Source: Candidatus Intestinimonas merdavium (GTDB lineage: Bacteria > Bacillota > Clostridia > Oscillospirales > Oscillospiraceae). From it: a DNA stretch of 64,000 nt. The stretch covers positions 1 to 64,000 of the forward strand of contig DXCX01000027.1 of assembly GCA_019115785.1 (NCBI GenBank). Reading direction: 5' to 3'. Of this stretch, positions 49,559 to 59,384 are shown piece by piece. The notes under the pieces are model-generated. The model worked only from the letters and a program-made list of their open reading frames with translations. It did no database searches and was not told the origin of the DNA. The translations under genes and the position numbers were made by a program. Within the stretch, counting starts at the first letter, position 1. Each line of letters starts with the position of its first letter.

Positions 49559-50287
49559 ATGAATATATGGGGCATCACCGATGTGGGAGTGGTTCGGAAG
49601 CAAAATCAGGACAACTACCACATTGAGCTCCTGGCAGAGGATATGGCGCTTGGTATCGTCTGTGATGGCATGGGTGGAGCCAAGGCGGGCAATGTCGCCA
49701 GCCAGTTGGCGGTAGAAACCTTTTTGGATACGGCCAATGCCCAGCCGCCGGAGCAATGGCGGAATGAGCCGGAAGCACTTCTACACTTCGCGGCAGAACA
49801 GGCCAACGGCGCCGTTCATTTCCGTGCGAGTGTCGACGCTGACTGCCGGGGTATGGGAACTACCATGGTGGTAGCACTGGCCATCGGCAATCAGGCCTAC
49901 ATCCTGAATATCGGTGACAGCCGATGCTACCTGGTGCGGCCGGAGGGTATTTCTCGGGTGACGCGGGACCACTCTGTGGTGGAGGACCTGGTGGCCCGGG
50001 GGCAGATTACCCCAGAGCAGGCCAGGCAACACCCGCAGAAAAACCTAATTACCCGGGCTTTGGGAGCGGAATCCCAGCTCCGGGCTGATCTCTTCCGCCA
50101 GTCCGTGGAGCCGGGCGACGCCTTGCTCCTCTGTTCTGACGGTTTGAGCAACGTGGTCTCGGATCAGGAACTCCTCTATGAGGTCCTCCACGGCGGCCCT
50201 GCGGAGGACTGCTGTCGGAGACTGCTGGACATTGCGTTGTCCAGAGGCGCACCGGACAATGTGACCGCGGTCCTGCTTCAGATGTAA
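49559..50287 (+). CDS. stp: PP2C family Ser/Thr protein phosphatase
   Basis: ITDVGVVRKQNQDNY, VCDGMGGAKAGNVAS, GDSRCYLV, LCSDGLSNVV. Confidence 0.95.
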   Translation: MNIWGITDVGVVRKQNQDNYHIELLAEDMALGIVCDGMGGAKAGNVASQLAVETFLDTANAQPPEQWRNEPEALLHFAAEQANGAVHFRASVDADCRGMGTTMVVALAIGNQAYILNIGDSRCYLVRPEGISRVTRDHSVVEDLVARGQITPEQARQHPQKNLITRALGAESQLRADLFRQSVEPGDALLLCSDGLSNVVSDQELLYEVLHGGPAEDCCRRLLDIALSRGAPDNVTAVLLQM

Positions 50288-50306
50288 CAAGGAGGATACC
50301 CCCATT

Positions 50307-52397
50307 ATGGATCAATACATAGGGAAATTGCTGGACAACCGATATGAGATCCTGGAGCGGATCGGTACCGGTGGCATGGCGGTGGTGTTCAAGGGACGGG
50401 ACCACCGACTCAACCGGCTGGTGGCAATCAAGATCCTCAAGGACGATTTGGCCAAGGATGCCGAGTTCCGACGCCGGTTCCACGACGAATCTCAGGCAGT
50501 GGCCATGCTCTCCCACCCCAATATCATGGCGGTATACGATGTAAGCCGCTCTGAGCAGGTGGAGTATATTGTCATGGAGCTCATCGACGGCATTACCCTC
50601 AAGCAGTATATGCAGCGCAAGGGAGGCCCTCTGAGTTGGAAGGAATCCCTCCATTTTATAACCCAGATTATGAAGGCACTCTCCCACGCCCACGGTCGGG
50701 GTATCATCCATCGGGATATCAAACCCCAGAACATTATGGTCCTGCGAGATGGCAGCATCAAGGTCACCGATTTTGGCATTGCCCGCTTGGCCTCTGCGGC
50801 TCAGAGCACCTTGACCCAGGAGGCTCTGGGTTCTGTCCACTATATCTCTCCTGAGCAGGCCAGAGGCAGCCGTATTGACGGCCGCAGCGACATTTACTCC
50901 GCCGGCGTGGTGCTTTACGAGATGCTCACCGGTCGTCTGCCCTTCGAGGGGGACACACCGGTGTCGGTAGCCATTCAACACATCAACTCCATTCCTCTTC
51001 CGCCCCGGGAGCTCAATCCAGATATTCCAGAGGCTCTGGAAGCCATCACGATGAAGGCCATGGCGCCTAAGGTGGAAAATCGCTACCGCAGCGCCGACGA
51101 CATGCTATACGATCTGGAGGAGTTCCGAAAGGACCCCAATATTGACTTAGAATACGATCCAACCAAACTTTTTGCTACGCCCGATGTGGCCGACGAGCCC
51201 ACCCAGGTCATTGGTACAGGGGTGCGCCGGCGAAGCGCACAGGGAGACACCGGCTCGGTGCGCCGCCGAAATCGGGAGGAGTCCGATTACGAGACACGTG
51301 TAACCCCCATGGAGCGTTCCCGAAAACGGCAGAGAAGCAGCATGTCGGTGCCTCTAGCTGTAGCCTCTATCCTGGTCTTTATCATTGGAATCGGAGTATT
51401 GCTCTGGGTGGTCTTCTTCAGTAACAGCTTCGAGTCCGATAGCCGTCATACCGTACCAAATCTTTACGGCATGACAGTAGAGGAAGCTATGTCCGACCCC
51501 AAGGTGGAGGGTATTTTTGAGATATTAGAAGGGGGGTCCGTGTCCAGCAGTCTGCCAGTGGGGCAGATTGTCTCCCAGGATCCGGCAGCCAAGCAACAGG
51601 TCACTGGAGAGAACCTTACGATCACCGTGACCACCAGCGCTGGTGAGGAGCCCATCTACATGCCTGACCTTGTAAACAAGGACTATCTGGAGGCGCAGCA
51701 GACTTTGCTGGATCTTGGCATCCCCAAGGCCAACGTTACTATGACCTGGGAGTATTCCGATGAGACCACAAAGAATAATGTGACCAGGACCGTCCCTCTG
51801 GCGGACAGCGCGCTCCAACCAGACACCATGGTAGAGATCTTTGTCAGCCAAGGCCCAGAGGTGGCCCAGCGGACCATGCTTTTCGTAGAGGGTATGACGC
51901 TCTCCGCCGCCAAGGATCTTCTGGAGGGCGAGAAGGGTCTGGGGCTGGTGGTAAAAGTCGTCTATACGGACAGCGATGAACCCGAAGATACCGTGCTCCT
52001 CCAGAGCATCCCTGCCGGCACTCAGGTGGACGAGGGGACTACGGTAACACTCCAGGTGAGCAATGGCTCCGGCAGTGTGTCCGAGGAGGTGCCTGGTATT
52101 GAGAGCCCGGCACCGGAGGACCCCACACCCACGCCCTCGCCGTCTCCCAGCATTGATCCAGACGTGAAGACAATCCAGTACTCTGTGACCCTGCCTGACG
52201 GCGATCCAAACGATATCGTCAAAGTAGAGGTTCGTGGTTCCGGATACGATCAGAGCAGAGAGGTTTCGCTCCTGGTCCGTGAAGTTGTCTTCAATATCAC
52301 TGGCAAGGGAAAGCAGAAGTTTGACATTTATTTTGACGGAGAGCGGGGCTATAGCATTGAGGTCAACTTTGATACTGGGGAAGTGAAGCTAGGATGA
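50307..52397 (+). CDS. prkC: Ser/Thr protein kinase with PASTA domains
   Basis: Kinase motifs GTGGMAVVFKG, IIHRDIKPQNIMV, DFGIA; TM segment; three PASTA-like repeats. Confidence 0.96.
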   Translation: MDQYIGKLLDNRYEILERIGTGGMAVVFKGRDHRLNRLVAIKILKDDLAKDAEFRRRFHDESQAVAMLSHPNIMAVYDVSRSEQVEYIVMELIDGITLKQYMQRKGGPLSWKESLHFITQIMKALSHAHGRGIIHRDIKPQNIMVLRDGSIKVTDFGIARLASAAQSTLTQEALGSVHYISPEQARGSRIDGRSDIYSAGVVLYEMLTGRLPFEGDTPVSVAIQHINSIPLPPRELNPDIPEALEAITMKAMAPKVENRYRSADDMLYDLEEFRKDPNIDLEYDPTKLFATPDVADEPTQVIGTGVRRRSAQGDTGSVRRRNREESDYETRVTPMERSRKRQRSSMSVPLAVASILVFIIGIGVLLWVVFFSNSFESDSRHTVPNLYGMTVEEAMSDPKVEGIFEILEGGSVSSSLPVGQIVSQDPAAKQQVTGENLTITVTTSAGEEPIYMPDLVNKDYLEAQQTLLDLGIPKANVTMTWEYSDETTKNNVTRTVPLADSALQPDTMVEIFVSQGPEVAQRTMLFVEGMTLSAAKDLLEGEKGLGLVVKVVYTDSDEPEDTVLLQSIPAGTQVDEGTTVTLQVSNGSGSVSEEVPGIESPAPEDPTPTPSPSPSIDPDVKTIQYSVTLPDGDPNDIVKVEVRGSGYDQSREVSLLVREVVFNITGKGKQKFDIYFDGERGYSIEVNFDTGEVKLG

Positions 52398-53302
52398 CGG
52401 AAGGGATCGGTATGATCCGCAAGGCCCTCAGCGGCTTCTATTATGTAGATGATGGGAGCGGGGAGCTGGTGTCCTGCCGGGCCCGTGGCAAGTTCCGGCA
52501 TAAGAAAATCACGCCCCTGGTAGGCGATCGTGTGAAGTTTACCCGCCTCTCCGATGGCTCTGGAGCCCTGGATGAAATCCTACCTCGTAAAAATCAGTTT
52601 CAGCGTCCCGCTGTGGCCAATATCGACCAGTTGGTCATCATTGTCTCTGGTGCGATTCCAGTCACTGAGCCCTTCCTCATAGATCGGGTAGCCGCAATCG
52701 CTGATAGCAAGGAGCACTGTGATTGTCTCATCTGTATCAATAAATGTGATCTGGAGCCCGGGGATGAGCTCTACAAAATCTATACTGCTGCCGGTTTCCC
52801 CACTATACGGGTCAGTGCTACAACAGGAGAAGGGATCGATACCCTTAGAGCGGCAATATCTGAAAAGGTATCTGCCTTTACAGGAAATTCCGGCGTGGGA
52901 AAGTCGAGCATCCTCAATGCGCTGTCGCCTAGCTTTCATCTCCAGGTTGGTGAGGTGAGCGAAAAGCTGGGACGGGGACGCCACACCACCCGCCATGTGG
53001 AGCTCTACCGATTGGAGACCGATGCCGTGGTGGCCGATACCCCCGGCTTTTCCTCCTTTGATACAGAGCGTATGGAGCTGCTGAGAAAAGAGGAGTTGGA
53101 GCTCGCTTTTCGCGAGTTCCGTCCCTACCTTGGTGCGTGCCAATTTGTGGGGTGCTCACATGTAAAGGAAAAGGGCTGTGCAATTCTTGCTGCTCTGAGA
53201 GAAGGAAAGATTATGCCCAGTCGGCATGCCAGCTATATCCGCCTGTGGGAGCAGGTCAAAGACCTGCGTGAATGGGAGTTGGAAAAGCACAGAAAAGGCT
53301 AA
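52394..53302 (+). CDS. rsgA: Ribosome small subunit-dependent GTPase A
   Basis: FTGNSGVGKSSILNAL, GRHTTRHVELYRL, DTPGFSSFD, zinc site CQFVGCSHVKEKGCAI. Confidence 0.96.
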   Translation: MTEGIGMIRKALSGFYYVDDGSGELVSCRARGKFRHKKITPLVGDRVKFTRLSDGSGALDEILPRKNQFQRPAVANIDQLVIIVSGAIPVTEPFLIDRVAAIADSKEHCDCLICINKCDLEPGDELYKIYTAAGFPTIRVSATTGEGIDTLRAAISEKVSAFTGNSGVGKSSILNALSPSFHLQVGEVSEKLGRGRHTTRHVELYRLETDAVVADTPGFSSFDTERMELLRKEELELAFREFRPYLGACQFVGCSHVKEKGCAILAALREGKIMPSRHASYIRLWEQVKDLREWELEKHRKG

Positions 53303-53313
53303 GGCACACATTG

Positions 53314-53374
53314 CGCCTCCTTTTGCGTATACTGGTAACAGCAATGCCAGTCTGCGTGGAAGGAGGCGTTTTTT
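53314..53374 (+). terminator. Terminator-like hairpin at the rsgA end whose 3' arm contains the spoVM Shine-Dalgarno
   Basis: CGCCTCCTT (53314-53322) / AAGGAGGCG (53360-53368) followed by T6 (53369-53374); the spoVM ATG is at 53375. Confidence 0.6.
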
Positions 53375-53446
53375 ATGAAGATCGTAGTGGTCCGCTCCCC
53401 AAAATATCTGCGGGGCGTGCTGAAGGCCCTCTTCGGCCTGCGCTGA
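53375..53446 (+). CDS. spoVM: Stage V sporulation protein M (23 aa)
   Basis: MKIVVVRSPKYLRGVLKALFGLR; same size class and PK(F/Y)L.G(I/V) amphipathic pattern as B. subtilis SpoVM; SD AAGGAGG 8 nt upstream; located after prkC-rsgA as in Bacillus. Absent from the supplied ORF track. Confidence 0.85.
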   Translation: MKIVVVRSPKYLRGVLKALFGLR

Positions 53447-53453
53447 AAAAATG

Positions 53454-53482
53454 GAATAGCTTGGAATCCTTGTACATATGCT
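53454..53482 (+). promoter_or_regulatory. Candidate sigma-E-type promoter for sipL-spoIVA
   Basis: GAATA-16 bp-CATATGCT just upstream of sipL. Confidence 0.35.
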
Positions 53483-53514
53483 CCCTGTAGAAACGCTACA
53501 AGGAGAGGAACGCT

Positions 53515-55041
53515 ATGGAGCTGGAACTGAAGACCACCCAACTCAACTGCTACGATACCGTTTTGGATACCACGCTCTTTCAGGAGGAGACTCTGGAGAG
53601 CATCGTCCCAGACGCCTGTCCGGATATCCTGCGCATCGTGGACATGGAGGCGGCGGTGTGTCTGGGCACCAAGGAGGCCCAGGAGGGCAAAGCGGAGGTG
53701 ACCGGAACAGCCCGGTGTGCCGTTCTCTATGAGGCGGAGAGCGGTGAAGGGGTGCGGCGGATTACCGTCAATATCCCCTTCACCTGTACCGCCGAGGTGC
53801 CAGGGCTTACTCGACAGTGTCGGCTGTTGACGGAGCCACGGGTCATGTGGGCGGATGCTCGGAGCCTTAACCCCAGAAAGGTACTGGTAAGGGTAAGCTT
53901 GGCCATCGGCGTCCAGGCATTTGCCTCTCAGAGCGCCAGCTTCTGTGACAGAGTGGATGGCCAGGATCAAAATGGGATACAAACACTGGAAGAGCCTCAG
54001 ACCGCTTGTTTTATCATTGGTGTAGAGGAAAAATCCTTCACATTTTCGGACGACCTGAGCCTGTCAGCCACCCGGCCTCCGGCAGCGGAGATCCTGAAAA
54101 GTCGGGTAGATTTGGTATGTGGGGAATCCAAGCTCATTGGTAACAAGCTCATCTTCAAAGGGGAAGCGGGACTAAGGCTGGTGTACCGGGAACCGGGAGG
54201 CGGACTGTGTAGTGCCGATTTTACCCTGCCGTTCTCACAAATCATGGAGGTGAGCGGCGTAGGGGAGGAGGCAGACTGTGCTCTGTCGGTGGTCCTTACC
54301 GGAATTGACTGTACTTTGGATGGTGACGAGGGACGGATGATGTCAGTGGCGCTGGGTATGCTGGCTCAGGCCGTGGTCCGGGAGGAGCGGCAGGTGACAC
54401 TCCTCTCTGACATCTACAGTACATCCTATGACCTGACAGTCCAGCGCCGGAATTATACCCTGGATCGTTTGCTGGAACACGGAGAGCGGAGAATTACCAC
54501 GCGGGAGCTCCTGGAGACTACATCTCCGGTCCGTGAGGTGTGCGATGTCCATATTCATGTTGGCCTGGTGGAAGCGGAACGGGATGGTGACCAGGGGCGG
54601 TTGAAGGCGGAGCTCTCTGCTACGGTGGTCTATCTCTCAGAAGAGGGCATCTTGGAGTCGATTACCCGAACCATTTCCGCTATGTGTCCGGTGGAGTTTC
54701 CGGCAGGTGCCACATGCAGCTGCCACTGTGCCTGTTCCGGAGAGGGGGCAGCGGCTCCTGCCGGCGGCGGTGTGGAGCTGCGGTGTCCTTTGGAGTTCCG
54801 TTATCTGTTCCTACTGCCCCGTCAAACTGCTGGCGTATCCCAGGTCCGGCTGGAGGAGGATGCTCCTCGGGATCTTGCCGCTCGGCCCTCAATCGTACTC
54901 CGGGCGGTGGAGGAGGGAGAGCGGCTCTGGGACATCGCGAAGGCCTATGGAACCACCATGGAGGACATCGTCCAAGCCAACAGCCTGGGGGAGGAAGCTC
55001 CCGTGGCGGGGCGTGTCCTGCTCATCCCCAAGAAGCGGTAA
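53515..55041 (+). CDS. sipL: DUF3794 + LysM protein, SipL-like (SpoIVA-interacting)
   Basis: 508 aa with DUF3794 repeats (PDACPDILRIVDMEA..., YDLTVQRRNYTLDRLLEHGERRITTRELLE) and a C-terminal LysM (RAVEEGERLWDIAKAYGTTMEDIVQANSLGEEAPVAGRVLLIPK); directly upstream of spoIVA. Confidence 0.85.
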   Translation: MELELKTTQLNCYDTVLDTTLFQEETLESIVPDACPDILRIVDMEAAVCLGTKEAQEGKAEVTGTARCAVLYEAESGEGVRRITVNIPFTCTAEVPGLTRQCRLLTEPRVMWADARSLNPRKVLVRVSLAIGVQAFASQSASFCDRVDGQDQNGIQTLEEPQTACFIIGVEEKSFTFSDDLSLSATRPPAAEILKSRVDLVCGESKLIGNKLIFKGEAGLRLVYREPGGGLCSADFTLPFSQIMEVSGVGEEADCALSVVLTGIDCTLDGDEGRMMSVALGMLAQAVVREERQVTLLSDIYSTSYDLTVQRRNYTLDRLLEHGERRITTRELLETTSPVREVCDVHIHVGLVEAERDGDQGRLKAELSATVVYLSEEGILESITRTISAMCPVEFPAGATCSCHCACSGEGAAAPAGGGVELRCPLEFRYLFLLPRQTAGVSQVRLEEDAPRDLAARPSIVLRAVEEGERLWDIAKAYGTTMEDIVQANSLGEEAPVAGRVLLIPKKR

Positions 55042-55056
55042 AAGGAGGCATCTCCA

Positions 55057-56535
55057 TTGGAAGATCGTAACATCTATGAGGACATTGCACGGCGTACGGA
55101 GGGCGATATCTACATCGGCGTGGTGGGTCCGGTGCGGACGGGTAAGTCCACCTTTATCAAACGGTTTATGGAGACATTGGTACTGCCGAACATCGAGAAT
55201 GTCTATCGCAAGGAACGGGCCCGGGATGAACTACCGCAGAGCGGTTCCGGACGTACCGTAATGACGGCCGAGCCTAAATTTGTCCCGGAGGAGGCGGTGG
55301 AGCTTACGATGGAGGGCGGCACCCGTATGTCGGTGCGTCTTGTAGATTGTGTAGGCTATATGGTGCCAGGCGCTGTAGGTCAGACTGAGGATGATCAACC
55401 TCGGATGGTGACCACGCCTTGGTTCGACCACCCTATTCCCATGACGGAGGCAGCAGAGATCGGTACCCGAAAGGTGATTTCCGAACATGCAACCATTGCT
55501 GTGGTGGTCACCACAGATGGCAGTGTCACCGACATTCAAAGGGAAGACTACCTGGAGGCGGAGGAGCGGGTCATTACAGAACTCAAAGAGTTGGGGAAAC
55601 CCTTTCTGGTCCTTCTCAATTCCGCCTTTCCAAATTCGGAGCGAGCAAGGGCAATACGAAATGATATTGCCGGAAGATACGATGTAACCTGCATGGCGGT
55701 AAACTGTCTGGAGCTGAGCCAGGTCGACGTGACAGACATCATTCGGGCAGTTCTCTTTGAATTTCCGCTTCGGGAACTAGATCTGAACCTCCCGGCCTGG
55801 GTGGATGCGCTTCCGGGGGACCACCCGATTAAAAGTGGTCTTTACACCGCCATTCGGGAACAGGCCAGTGGGCTCCGACGCATCCGGGATGTGGACGGCG
55901 TAATTTCTGCCATCGGCAGCAGCGAAGGGGTCAGCAGAGCTCAGGTTACATCTGTGGAGCTGGGTACTGGTTTGGCTGCCGCCGATTTGGAGCTGCCCCG
56001 GAGCCTTTTCTACGAGACGCTTTCCGCCCAGTCCGGCTTCTCCATTCAGGATGATGGAGACCTTATGGGCCTACTTACCCAGCTCTCTGAGGTGAAGCGC
56101 TCTTATGACAAAGTGGCCGACGCCCTTCGTGAGGTAAAGGAGACAGGGTATGGCATCGTGGTGCCCACCACCGACGAGCTGAAGCTGGAAGAGCCTGAGA
56201 TTGTCCGGCAGGGTGGGAGATATGGGGTCCGCCTCAAGGCCTCTGCCCCCTCGATCCATATGATCCGCGCCGACATAGAGACGGAAGTCTCTCCCATCGT
56301 GGGCAACGAAAAGCAGTCAGAGGAGATGGTCCACTATCTGCTTCAAGAGTTTGAGGGGGATACCAAGGCCATCTGGCAATCCAATATCTTTGGACGCTCC
56401 TTCCATGAATTGGTCAGTGAGGATCTGAATACCAAGCTCAAACGGATGCCGGAGGATGCCAGAAGCAAGCTTCAGGAGACCCTACAGCGCATCATTAACG
56501 AGGGCTCCGGTGGGCTCATCTGTATCATTCTGTAA
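55057..56535 (+). CDS. spoIVA: Stage IV sporulation protein A
   Basis: NIYEDIARRTEGDIYIGVVGPVRTGKSTFIKRFMETLVLPNI, RMSVRLVDCVGYMVPGA, C-terminal EGSGGLICIIL-type end. Confidence 0.97.
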   Translation: MEDRNIYEDIARRTEGDIYIGVVGPVRTGKSTFIKRFMETLVLPNIENVYRKERARDELPQSGSGRTVMTAEPKFVPEEAVELTMEGGTRMSVRLVDCVGYMVPGAVGQTEDDQPRMVTTPWFDHPIPMTEAAEIGTRKVISEHATIAVVVTTDGSVTDIQREDYLEAEERVITELKELGKPFLVLLNSAFPNSERARAIRNDIAGRYDVTCMAVNCLELSQVDVTDIIRAVLFEFPLRELDLNLPAWVDALPGDHPIKSGLYTAIREQASGLRRIRDVDGVISAIGSSEGVSRAQVTSVELGTGLAAADLELPRSLFYETLSAQSGFSIQDDGDLMGLLTQLSEVKRSYDKVADALREVKETGYGIVVPTTDELKLEEPEIVRQGGRYGVRLKASAPSIHMIRADIETEVSPIVGNEKQSEEMVHYLLQEFEGDTKAIWQSNIFGRSFHELVSEDLNTKLKRMPEDARSKLQETLQRIINEGSGGLICIIL

Positions 56536-56539
56536 AAAA

Positions 56540-56579
56540 TGCCGCGGACCTACTCCATTTTTGGAGTCGGTCCGCGGCA
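56540..56579. terminator. Bidirectional terminator between spoIVA (+) and the decarboxylase gene (-)
   Basis: TGCCGCGGACC / GGTCCGCGGCA with nested ACTCCA-TTTT-TGGAGT; A6 (56534-56539) on the spoIVA side. Confidence 0.75.
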
Positions 56580-56595
56580 CTTCTTGTCTGCGCGG

Positions 56596-57939
56596 CTATA
56601 TCCTTTCCTGCACCACAGAGACGGTATCAAAGCCCAGATCCATCATGAGGGCGACAGCTTCCATGGTAATACGTTCGCCGCTGACGGCAATGGGGATAGC
56701 CGGGGGACAGGACACTGCCGCGCCGGCGCAGACTCGGCCGGCCGCCACCGCCACCGGCACCTCCTCCCAGGGGGAGAGCATGGCTGTTCTGGGAGAGAGC
56801 ACCCGCTCACCGGGTGTGGGCAGAGCTGTGGGGGAACGCCGGGGTCTGGGATGAAAGCCGACAAAAGCCGTTTCCACCCGATGGAAATCGGACTCAGACG
56901 CATCCGCGGCATACATAAGTACCACCTCATCCGGGTCAGAATACTCCGGCTCCACACCATTTTGTCGTAATAGGGTAGCCAGTTCATACCCGGAACAGCC
57001 CGCTGCCCAGCCATCTATTACCAGCTTCAAGGGCTCTCCGAAGCGCACTGGTACCCCTTTGGCCACGAGTCTCTCTTTTAGTTCGTCCAGCCGACGGACC
57101 ACTCGCTCCAGACGTTGGGTGTAGCAGTGAACTAGATGGTGGTTACAGGCATCCAGGGACTGGAGAATGAGATAGGAGGGACTGGAGGAGCCGAAGAGGG
57201 CCAATGCCTGCCGGGCCTCATGCTCATAGGACGCCATAGCAGAGGAGGAGACATGGAGATAAGCGCCGCCAGTAAGCACAGGCAAGGTCTTGTGGGCAGA
57301 GTCACAGCACAGGTCGGCACCCAGGTCCATGGGATGGCGTGAGGGAGACAGAAAGCGGAGATAGGCTCCATGGGCGTTGTCAACCAGGAGAGGAACCCCG
57401 TGCCGATGACAAACGTCAGCAAGAGCGCCAATGTCCAGCATGCCGCCCAGATAGTCGGGAGAGGTAACATATACCGCCAAAGGAGACGCATCCTGATCAG
57501 CGAGCACACGCTCCAATCCGGCGGGGGAGAGGGGACAGGCACACAGAGAGCTTTCCCCCTCAGGGAGAAGCCAATGTGGCTCCAGATCCAGAAGGGCACA
57601 GGCATGGAGGAAGGCCTTATGGGCGTTGCGGCCAGCCAGCACCGTTCGGGAAGTGGCAGATACCCGGTGGAGCATGGCCAGATAGAGCATGGCTTTCACA
57701 CACTGGGAGGAGCCGCCGGCACTGTAGAAGGTGTGGCGTGTGCCAAAGAGGGTGGAGGCATTGTTCTCGCTTTCCAGAATGATGCCCTTTGGGTGAGAGA
57801 GATCGTCGGCACCCTCTACCTCTGTGATGTCCAGCGCCTCACAGCCCAGGGGCCCAGCTCCCTTATGACCAGGCATATGAAGCCGGGCATTGCCGGCATC
57901 AGCGTAGCCCCTGACAAAGTCGCAGATGGGGGTATTCAT
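56596..57939 (-). CDS. Orn/Lys/Arg decarboxylase-family, PLP-dependent aminotransferase-fold protein
   Basis: ARLHMPGHKGAGPLG, LLVDNAHGAYL, DSAHKTLPVLTGGAYLHV (PLP Lys); ATGA overlap with scfB. Confidence 0.88.
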   Translation of the reverse strand: MNTPICDFVRGYADAGNARLHMPGHKGAGPLGCEALDITEVEGADDLSHPKGIILESENNASTLFGTRHTFYSAGGSSQCVKAMLYLAMLHRVSATSRTVLAGRNAHKAFLHACALLDLEPHWLLPEGESSLCACPLSPAGLERVLADQDASPLAVYVTSPDYLGGMLDIGALADVCHRHGVPLLVDNAHGAYLRFLSPSRHPMDLGADLCCDSAHKTLPVLTGGAYLHVSSSAMASYEHEARQALALFGSSSPSYLILQSLDACNHHLVHCYTQRLERVVRRLDELKERLVAKGVPVRFGEPLKLVIDGWAAGCSGYELATLLRQNGVEPEYSDPDEVVLMYAADASESDFHRVETAFVGFHPRPRRSPTALPTPGERVLSPRTAMLSPWEEVPVAVAAGRVCAGAAVSCPPAIPIAVSGERITMEAVALMMDLGFDTVSVVQERI

Positions 57940-59318
57940 GCCTGCCGCTCCTGGCTTTGGGCTACCTGTAACATGATAGCACACTCCATCCGCTTTTTGA
58001 AGAGCTCGCAGCCGTAGGGATAGATGCCCCGGATACTGCCAGAGGCGTGGTAGCTGTTGGCGGCGCAGCCTCCAGAGCAGTAGAGTCTGGCCCAGCAGTC
58101 GGCGCACTCCGGACGGGCATATGCGTTACAGCTGCGGAACTCGTCCTGAATGGCAATGTTGGTCACCCCATCCCAGATGTTGCCCATGGAATATTTGGGA
58201 TCTCCCACAAACTGGTGGCAGGGAAAGAGCTCTCCCCAGGGAGTGACCGCCATGTATTCGGTGCCGCTGCCGCATCCAGAAATACGTTTGTAGATACAGG
58301 GACCGTGCTTGAGGTCCAGGATATAGTGATAGAAGGTGAAGGGGCGTCCCTCCCGCTGACGGCGCAGCATCTCCTGGGCCAGATTCTCATACTGCTCAAA
58401 AAGTACAGGCAGATCATCCTGCGTGAGCGCGCAGGGATCATCAGGCGCGCACACCACTGGTTCCATGCTCAATTCAGTGAAACCCAAGTCAGCCATATGG
58501 AGGATGTCACTGAGAAAGTCCGTGTTGTAGTGGGTATAGGTACCCCGGATGTAGTAGCTCTTATTGCCTCGCCGCTCCACAAAATGCTGAAACTTGGGTA
58601 CAATGGTGTCGTAGCTGCCGTTGCCAGCATAGTCCTTCCGAAAACGGTCATGGACCTCCTTCCTGCCATCCAGGGAGAGGACCACATTGTGCATCTCCTG
58701 ATTGCAGAAGTCGATAACCTCGTCGTTTAGCAGCACACCATTGGTGGTAAGGGTAAAGCGAAAATTCTTGTTATGAATGGGTTCCAGACTCCGAGCATAG
58801 GCCACCAGATCCTTCACCACCTGCCAGTTCATCAGGGGCTCGCCGCCAAAAAAATCCACCTCCAGATTCCGGCGGGTACCAGAATGGGCGACAAGGAAGT
58901 CCAGCGCCTGCTTGCCCACATCGAAGGACATGAGGGCCCGTTCTCCCTGGTACTTGCCCTGACTGGCAAAACAGTAGGAGCAGCTCAGATTACAGGTATG
59001 AGCCACATGAAGACACAGGGCCTTGATGACGTTGGAGTGGTTTTTGTAGTCAGCCGCCATTGGGGCATAGGTGTCGGGGGTAAAAAGCTTGTGGTCAGCT
59101 TCCAGGGCGGCCACATCGTCGATGCAGGCTTGGACGTCCTCTTTGGTGACATCCGGGCGGTCTGGGTAATTGGCCAGAATACGCTGACAGATCTCCTCAG
59201 GGGAGTGGTCGGGATAAAGGGCAATGATGTCATATGCCACCTCGTCCACCAGATGGACCGAGCCGCTGCAAGTGTCCAGGACGATATGATATCCGTCCAG
59301 TTTGTATTGATGTACCAT
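57936..59318 (-). CDS. scfB: Thioether cross-link-forming SCIFF peptide maturase (radical SAM/SPASM)
   Basis: HVAHTCNLSCSYCFASQGKY (CxxxCxxC), FFGGEPLMNW, SPASM region CNAYARPECADCWARLYCSGGCAANSY; next to the SCIFF precursor. Confidence 0.95.
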   Translation of the reverse strand: MVHQYKLDGYHIVLDTCSGSVHLVDEVAYDIIALYPDHSPEEICQRILANYPDRPDVTKEDVQACIDDVAALEADHKLFTPDTYAPMAADYKNHSNVIKALCLHVAHTCNLSCSYCFASQGKYQGERALMSFDVGKQALDFLVAHSGTRRNLEVDFFGGEPLMNWQVVKDLVAYARSLEPIHNKNFRFTLTTNGVLLNDEVIDFCNQEMHNVVLSLDGRKEVHDRFRKDYAGNGSYDTIVPKFQHFVERRGNKSYYIRGTYTHYNTDFLSDILHMADLGFTELSMEPVVCAPDDPCALTQDDLPVLFEQYENLAQEMLRRQREGRPFTFYHYILDLKHGPCIYKRISGCGSGTEYMAVTPWGELFPCHQFVGDPKYSMGNIWDGVTNIAIQDEFRSCNAYARPECADCWARLYCSGGCAANSYHASGSIRGIYPYGCELFKKRMECAIMLQVAQSQERQA

Positions 59319-59384
59319 AAATCTTGATTCCTCCACGGGATGATCTCATCTTTGAATAGAGCCTCAACTGGCCCATAGAAAAAA

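Follow-up and report, generated by a model that had tools for sequence, protein, structure and literature searches.

The spoVM, sipL and spoIVA genes, which encode proteins of the spore-coat basement, are consecutive, all on the + strand and immediately 3′ of the prkC-rsgA genes in the window (the whole 64,000-nucleotide stretch of DNA that was analysed). This arrangement raises the question of whether the three genes are expressed as one unit, and of how they could be kept apart from the transcription of a vegetative operon located directly upstream.

A coat-gene module behind a vegetative operon

The upstream vegetative operon comprises a prkC-type PASTA Ser/Thr kinase gene (50307-52397, + strand; NF033483, E = 8.9e-172) and the ribosome GTPase gene rsgA (52394-53302, + strand; TIGR00157, E = 4e-61), the final vegetative gene before the module. 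spoVM (53375-53446, + strand) encodes a 23-aa amphipathic membrane anchor, MKIVVVRSPKYLRGVLKALFGLR. sipL (53515-55041, + strand) encodes a protein with two PF12673 (SPOCS/SipL) domains and a C-terminal LysM domain (PF01476), over cut-off. spoIVA (55057-56535, + strand), which begins with a TTG start, encodes the polymerising coat ATPase, a full-length match to the TIGR02836 equivalog (E = 1.5e-217) with three Pfam domains, ATPase, middle and C-terminal. The intergenic gaps are 68 bp between spoVM and sipL and 15 bp between sipL and spoIVA. The adjacency and identities of the three genes, first proposed in a sequence-only reading of this DNA, are borne out by the ORFs at these positions and by their domain and equivalog matches; that reading did not include the vegetative prkC-rsgA context, the two promoters nested in hairpins, or the two-TM gene of relatives described below.

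The SpoVM ORF aligns to NCBIfam SpoVM_broad over residues 1-22, with E = 3.5e-4 and 20.5 bits, below the 31-bit cut-off. This cut-off is exceeded in just 7 of the 81 genomes of the window's family and, since most family relatives score under it, SpoVM_broad under-represents this lineage. In a family-wide alignment with B. subtilis SpoVM as a seed row, the window protein can be aligned to SpoVM along its length and displays the P9 and G14/A18/G21 pattern. As for SipL, W472 is located 12 residues past I460, as W475 is relative to I463 in C. difficile, where W475 stabilises SpoIVA binding (PMC6436350). The LysM residue at the W472 position is a Trp in 124 of 124 SipL sequences; because W472 is both the counterpart of W475 and invariant, binding of SipL to SpoIVA is, by analogy, likely here. 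For the direct SpoVM-SipL-SpoIVA complex suggested by the sequence-only reading, the published evidence considered here concerns the SipL-SpoIVA pair, in C. difficile (PMC6436350).

Downstream of spoIVA, a terminator-like inverted repeat (56540-56579; -34.8 kcal/mol, z = -8.35) separates it from a convergent minus-strand gene. An OKR decarboxylase-like gene (56596-58107) and a SCIFF-peptide maturase gene (57936-59336, - strand; TIGR03974, E = 2.2e-228) are convergent to spoIVA.

The gene order recurs in related genomes

The closest named genomes belong to Pseudoflavonifractor, Flavonifractor and Intestinimonas (Oscillospiraceae). The window's family was sampled at roughly one genome per genus. 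Each of the 38 genomes in which spoVM and sipL were both located has spoVM directly 5′ of sipL, and sipL was adjacent to spoIVA in 25 of 68 genomes. Across the order, sipL and spoIVA are adjacent in 38 of the 74 genomes with both genes, spread over 13 families; outside the order, none of the 64 genomes of the class in which both genes were located has sipL beside spoIVA. The full three-gene order is present in five families of the order (f1, f3, f5, f59 and f63), one of which mostly has spoVM flipped. Around SpoIVA loci from named genomes, sipL was within the fetched stretch in 48 of 80 cases, accompanied by spoVM in 45 of these 48. Because the adjacency recurs in many genera and families, it is not due to chance, and the linkage noticed in this one genome thus extends well beyond it.

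The order is not fixed. Some related genomes have sipL-spoIVA without spoVM, or spoVM-sipL without spoIVA, and in family f71 spoVM precedes spoIVA and not sipL. In Oscillibacter and Dysosmobacter (L079, L087, L091, L092), an opposite-strand operon, which reads as an amino-acid ABC transporter, splits sipL from spoIVA. Outside the order, spoVM is divergent from the spoIVA match at a distance of 365-404 bp in family f18 (L051, G093, G123, G214), and at about 2.2 kb in another genome (G190). In C. difficile, spoIVA is CD2629 and sipL is CD3567 (PMC3789822), while spoVM sits beside CD25622/rpmB (PMC5607322); these separate positions agree with the statement in the sequence-only reading that the three genes are unlinked in this species. 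We found no description in the open-access literature of spoVM/sipL insulation in Oscillospiraceae or of this gene order.

Two predicted promoters of mother-cell type

A sigma-E-type promoter of sipL-spoIVA is predicted at 53454-53482 (+ strand), with the -35 GAATAGC (53454-53460), a 14-nt spacer and the -10 CATATGCT (53475-53482). It shows the sigma-E pattern of an ATA -35 core, a 14-nt spacer and a CATA -10. The promoter is conserved: a sigma-E-like score is reached by 80 of 84 sipL leaders versus 6 of 84 shuffled leaders, and 73 of these 80 promoters have the 14-nt spacer, the lineage motifs being GCATAnC for the -35 and CATATAGT for the -10. The spoIIIAA promoters of the family share this layout, and the spoIIIAA operon is a sigma-E operon. 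Since such a promoter separates sipL from spoVM in nearly every genome, sipL-spoIVA appears to be a transcription unit of its own, in which the two genes are likely co-transcribed. In addition, a terminator is located between spoVM and sipL in 10 of 84 genomes.

spoVM is itself preceded by a putative sporulation promoter of sigma-E/K type (53306-53333, + strand), with a weak -35-like ACACATT (53306-53312) and the -10 CGTATACT (53326-53333), kept in relatives as CATATGCT or CGTATACT. The weakness of the -35 leaves the sigma factor uncertain; the promoter could be recognised by sigma-K or by SpoIIID-assisted sigma-E. The co-regulation suggested by the sequence-only reading is therefore supported by a promoter of mother-cell type before each of spoVM and sipL-spoIVA, with a mother-cell sigma factor the likely regulator.

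Both promoters overlap predicted hairpins that reach the next Shine-Dalgarno sequence

A long hairpin (53313-53368) followed by TTTTTT (53369-53374) occupies the + strand from 53313 to 53374, immediately before the ATG of spoVM. In the window its folding energy is -37.9 kcal/mol (z = -5.84), and 0 of 200 shuffles were as stable. The -10 CGTATACT is inside its 5′ side and the SD AAGGAGGCG (53360-53368) inside its 3′ arm; the predicted openness of this SD in the window is 0.000 in read-through RNA versus 0.41 in the sporulation transcript. Because the SD is in the 3′ arm and the TTTTTT comes directly after, the hairpin may both stop transcripts arriving from rsgA and conceal the SD. Nine relatives carry an equivalent hairpin with differing arm sequences. 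A terminator scan limited to 3-8 nt loops misses these long hairpins, and an Rfam search of window positions 50000-57500 gave no match.

The sipL leader contains an anti-SD hairpin (53468-53503, + strand), in which CCTTGTA (53468-53474), in the promoter spacer, pairs with TACAAGG (53497-53503), the start of the sipL SD. No U-tract follows it. Predicted openness of the sipL SD is 0.18 in read-through RNA versus 0.83 in the sigma-E transcript in the window, and 0.33 versus 0.64 across the lineage (p = 2e-9). The spoVM hairpin is the stronger of the two elements; by itself, the sipL hairpin is weak in the window genome (z = -1.42, arm excess -1.4 kcal/mol) and, as it is not significant alone, the argument for it is made at the level of the lineage.

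The position of the hairpin shifts relative to the -10 and the ATG, so that MAFFT misregisters the arms in column-based covariation. For this reason, we used a cross-genome permutation of duplex energies, in which the upstream segment of a genome was paired either with the SD segment of that genome or with those of other genomes. For sipL, own-genome pairing of the arms beat 10000 of 10000 permutations (z = -11.2, n = 124), and the matched arms persisted when the set was thinned to roughly one genome per genus (z = -8.1), as well as among leaders less than 55% identical (z = -7.9). When the target was slid along the leader, the signal peaked at the SD (z = -7.3) and was about -2 elsewhere, a permutation background that probably comes from base composition. 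Taken singly, fewer than half of the genomes are significant. The arms match less where a terminator separates spoVM and sipL (p = 0.013, n = 10 versus 74, uncorrected and one of several comparisons). Read-through from spoVM does not account for two loci (L046, L050) at which the arms of the sipL leader are matched although spoVM faces away from sipL.

Hairpin position tracks the leading gene

A hairpin that serves for insulation is expected at whichever gene opens the unit. In 58 of 101 loci, spanning several families (L036, L091, L172 and L205 among them) and a relative from the class (L062), the vegetative genes are followed by a small ORF for a two-TM protein, mostly of 47-64 aa, and only then by spoVM; this ORF is missing from the window locus, and has no Pfam match over any cut-off. 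The SD of this ORF has matched arms (z = -8.8, 0 of 5000 permutations). In genomes with the small ORF ahead, the spoVM SD shows no matched-arm signal (z = +2.0), and in genomes without it, the spoVM arms are matched (z = -7.8). The hairpin thus tracks whichever gene comes first, in a test that the model could have failed. In the same permutation test, no matched-arm signal was detected for spoIVA behind sipL (z = +1.3) or for the negative control spoIIIAA (z = -0.2), and the positive control sigG had matched arms in the window's family (z = -6.5). Many sigG leaders of the family (L243-L272) form long hairpins that enclose the -10 (AATACT) and have the RBS as 3′ arm.

A model for insulation from read-through, and its alternatives

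Based on these sequence comparisons, spoVM and sipL-spoIVA are probably two mother-cell units, each insulated from prkC-rsgA read-through by a promoter-nested hairpin. The two units would be embedded separately behind the vegetative operon, each with its sporulation promoter nested in a hairpin that extends as far as the SD of the following gene. Both arms would be present in RNA from vegetative read-through, and the hairpin would form; before spoVM, the hairpin and its U-tract would also terminate transcription, and before sipL, the hairpin would only hide the SD. By contrast, RNA made with the sporulation sigma factor would start 3′ of the 5′ arm, lack the hairpin and be translated. SpoVM, SipL and SpoIVA would then be made together in the mother cell and not in growing cells, and the LysM domain of SipL would bind SpoIVA as in C. 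difficile. A plausible reason for such insulation is that a coat scaffold able to polymerise by itself could be harmful during growth.

That the three genes instead form a single sporulation operon, transcribed from the promoter 5′ of spoVM and with its products in one complex, would be in agreement with their consecutive position on the same strand, the 15-bp gap between sipL and spoIVA, the conserved gene order and the binding of SipL to SpoIVA in C. difficile (PMC6436350). However, this reading, and with it the earlier notion of one co-transcribed cluster, conflicts with the sigma-E-type promoter that 80 of 84 genomes have between spoVM and sipL, with the terminators that separate these two genes in 10 of 84, with the relatives that have sipL-spoIVA minus spoVM or spoVM-sipL minus spoIVA, and with the split between sipL and spoIVA in Oscillibacter and Dysosmobacter. 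The promoter inside the cluster, the terminators and the loci at which the genes are split led us to reject a single operon as improbable.

The hairpins could also be ordinary features, that before spoVM being the rsgA terminator and that before sipL a fortuitous structure or a DNA-level dyad such as an operator. In favour of this, TTTTTT does come after the spoVM hairpin, and dyads that overlap promoters are often operators; however, the sipL hairpin has no U-tract, the arm sequences vary from genome to genome while still matching inside each one, something that a conserved protein site would not need, and the hairpin follows whichever gene is first, making this explanation unlikely. A further possibility, which we regard as very improbable, is that sporulation transcripts also fold into the hairpins, whose role would simply be to damp or time translation in the manner of the small RBS hairpin at B. 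subtilis sigG. The spoVM SD of the window indeed reaches an openness of only about 0.4 in the predicted sporulation transcript, but the 5′ arms coincide with the promoter spacer and the -10, ahead of any transcription start that such a promoter would be expected to give.

Relation to known systems

A large read-through hairpin has been published for B. subtilis sigG (spoIIIG) (PMC5942855 and work cited there). As proposed here, its 3′ arm is at the RBS, it forms only in RNA reading through from the upstream operon, and transcription from the promoter of sigG itself begins within the hairpin (PMC5942855). The hairpins described here are of this type, the 3′ arm covering the RBS and the 5′ arm falling within the promoter of the same gene or 5′ of it, and their pairing is conserved by matched changes across genomes. 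Unlike in B. subtilis sigG, the genes concerned here are mother-cell genes (spoVM, the small gene preceding it, and sipL) behind a housekeeping operon, and the arrangement is repeated in tandem, a U-tract accompanying the earlier of the two hairpins; the hairpin also moves to whichever gene comes first. A hairpin-nested sporulation promoter, already reported for one Bacillus gene, thus appears to be present in many gut Oscillospirales.

We see roughly even chances that Oscillospirales reuse this promoter-in-terminator or anti-SD-hairpin insulator wherever a sporulation gene is located behind another unit, that it travels with the first gene and gives way to an ordinary terminator once one is gained, and that most relatives make an undescribed two-TM protein with SpoVM. 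If so, developmental genes can sit inside a housekeeping operon without leaking, matched promoter-SD arms provide a sequence test by which developmental genes insulated in this way can be recognised in spore formers not yet in culture, and an observation made on a single B. subtilis gene becomes a lineage-wide rule. The adjacency of coat genes, though conserved, need not imply one transcript, and the comparison singles out a small membrane protein encoded next to spoVM.

The coat basement of C. difficile likewise involves SpoIVA, SipL and SpoVM, with a SPOCS-LysM SipL and its critical LysM Trp (PMC6436350, PMC5607322), and all three proteins are under sigma-E control (PMC6436350, PMC5607322). 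Unlike here, the C. difficile genes are unlinked, and SpoVM is largely dispensable (PMC5607322). CD25622, a gene of roughly 50 aa directly upstream of and co-transcribed with C. difficile spoVM, has been called Peptostreptococcaceae-specific (PMC5607322). Unlike this CD25622-spoVM unit, the window locus has no small gene ahead of spoVM; where Oscillospirales loci do have the two-TM ORF, it occupies the same position before spoVM as CD25622, a likeness of position.
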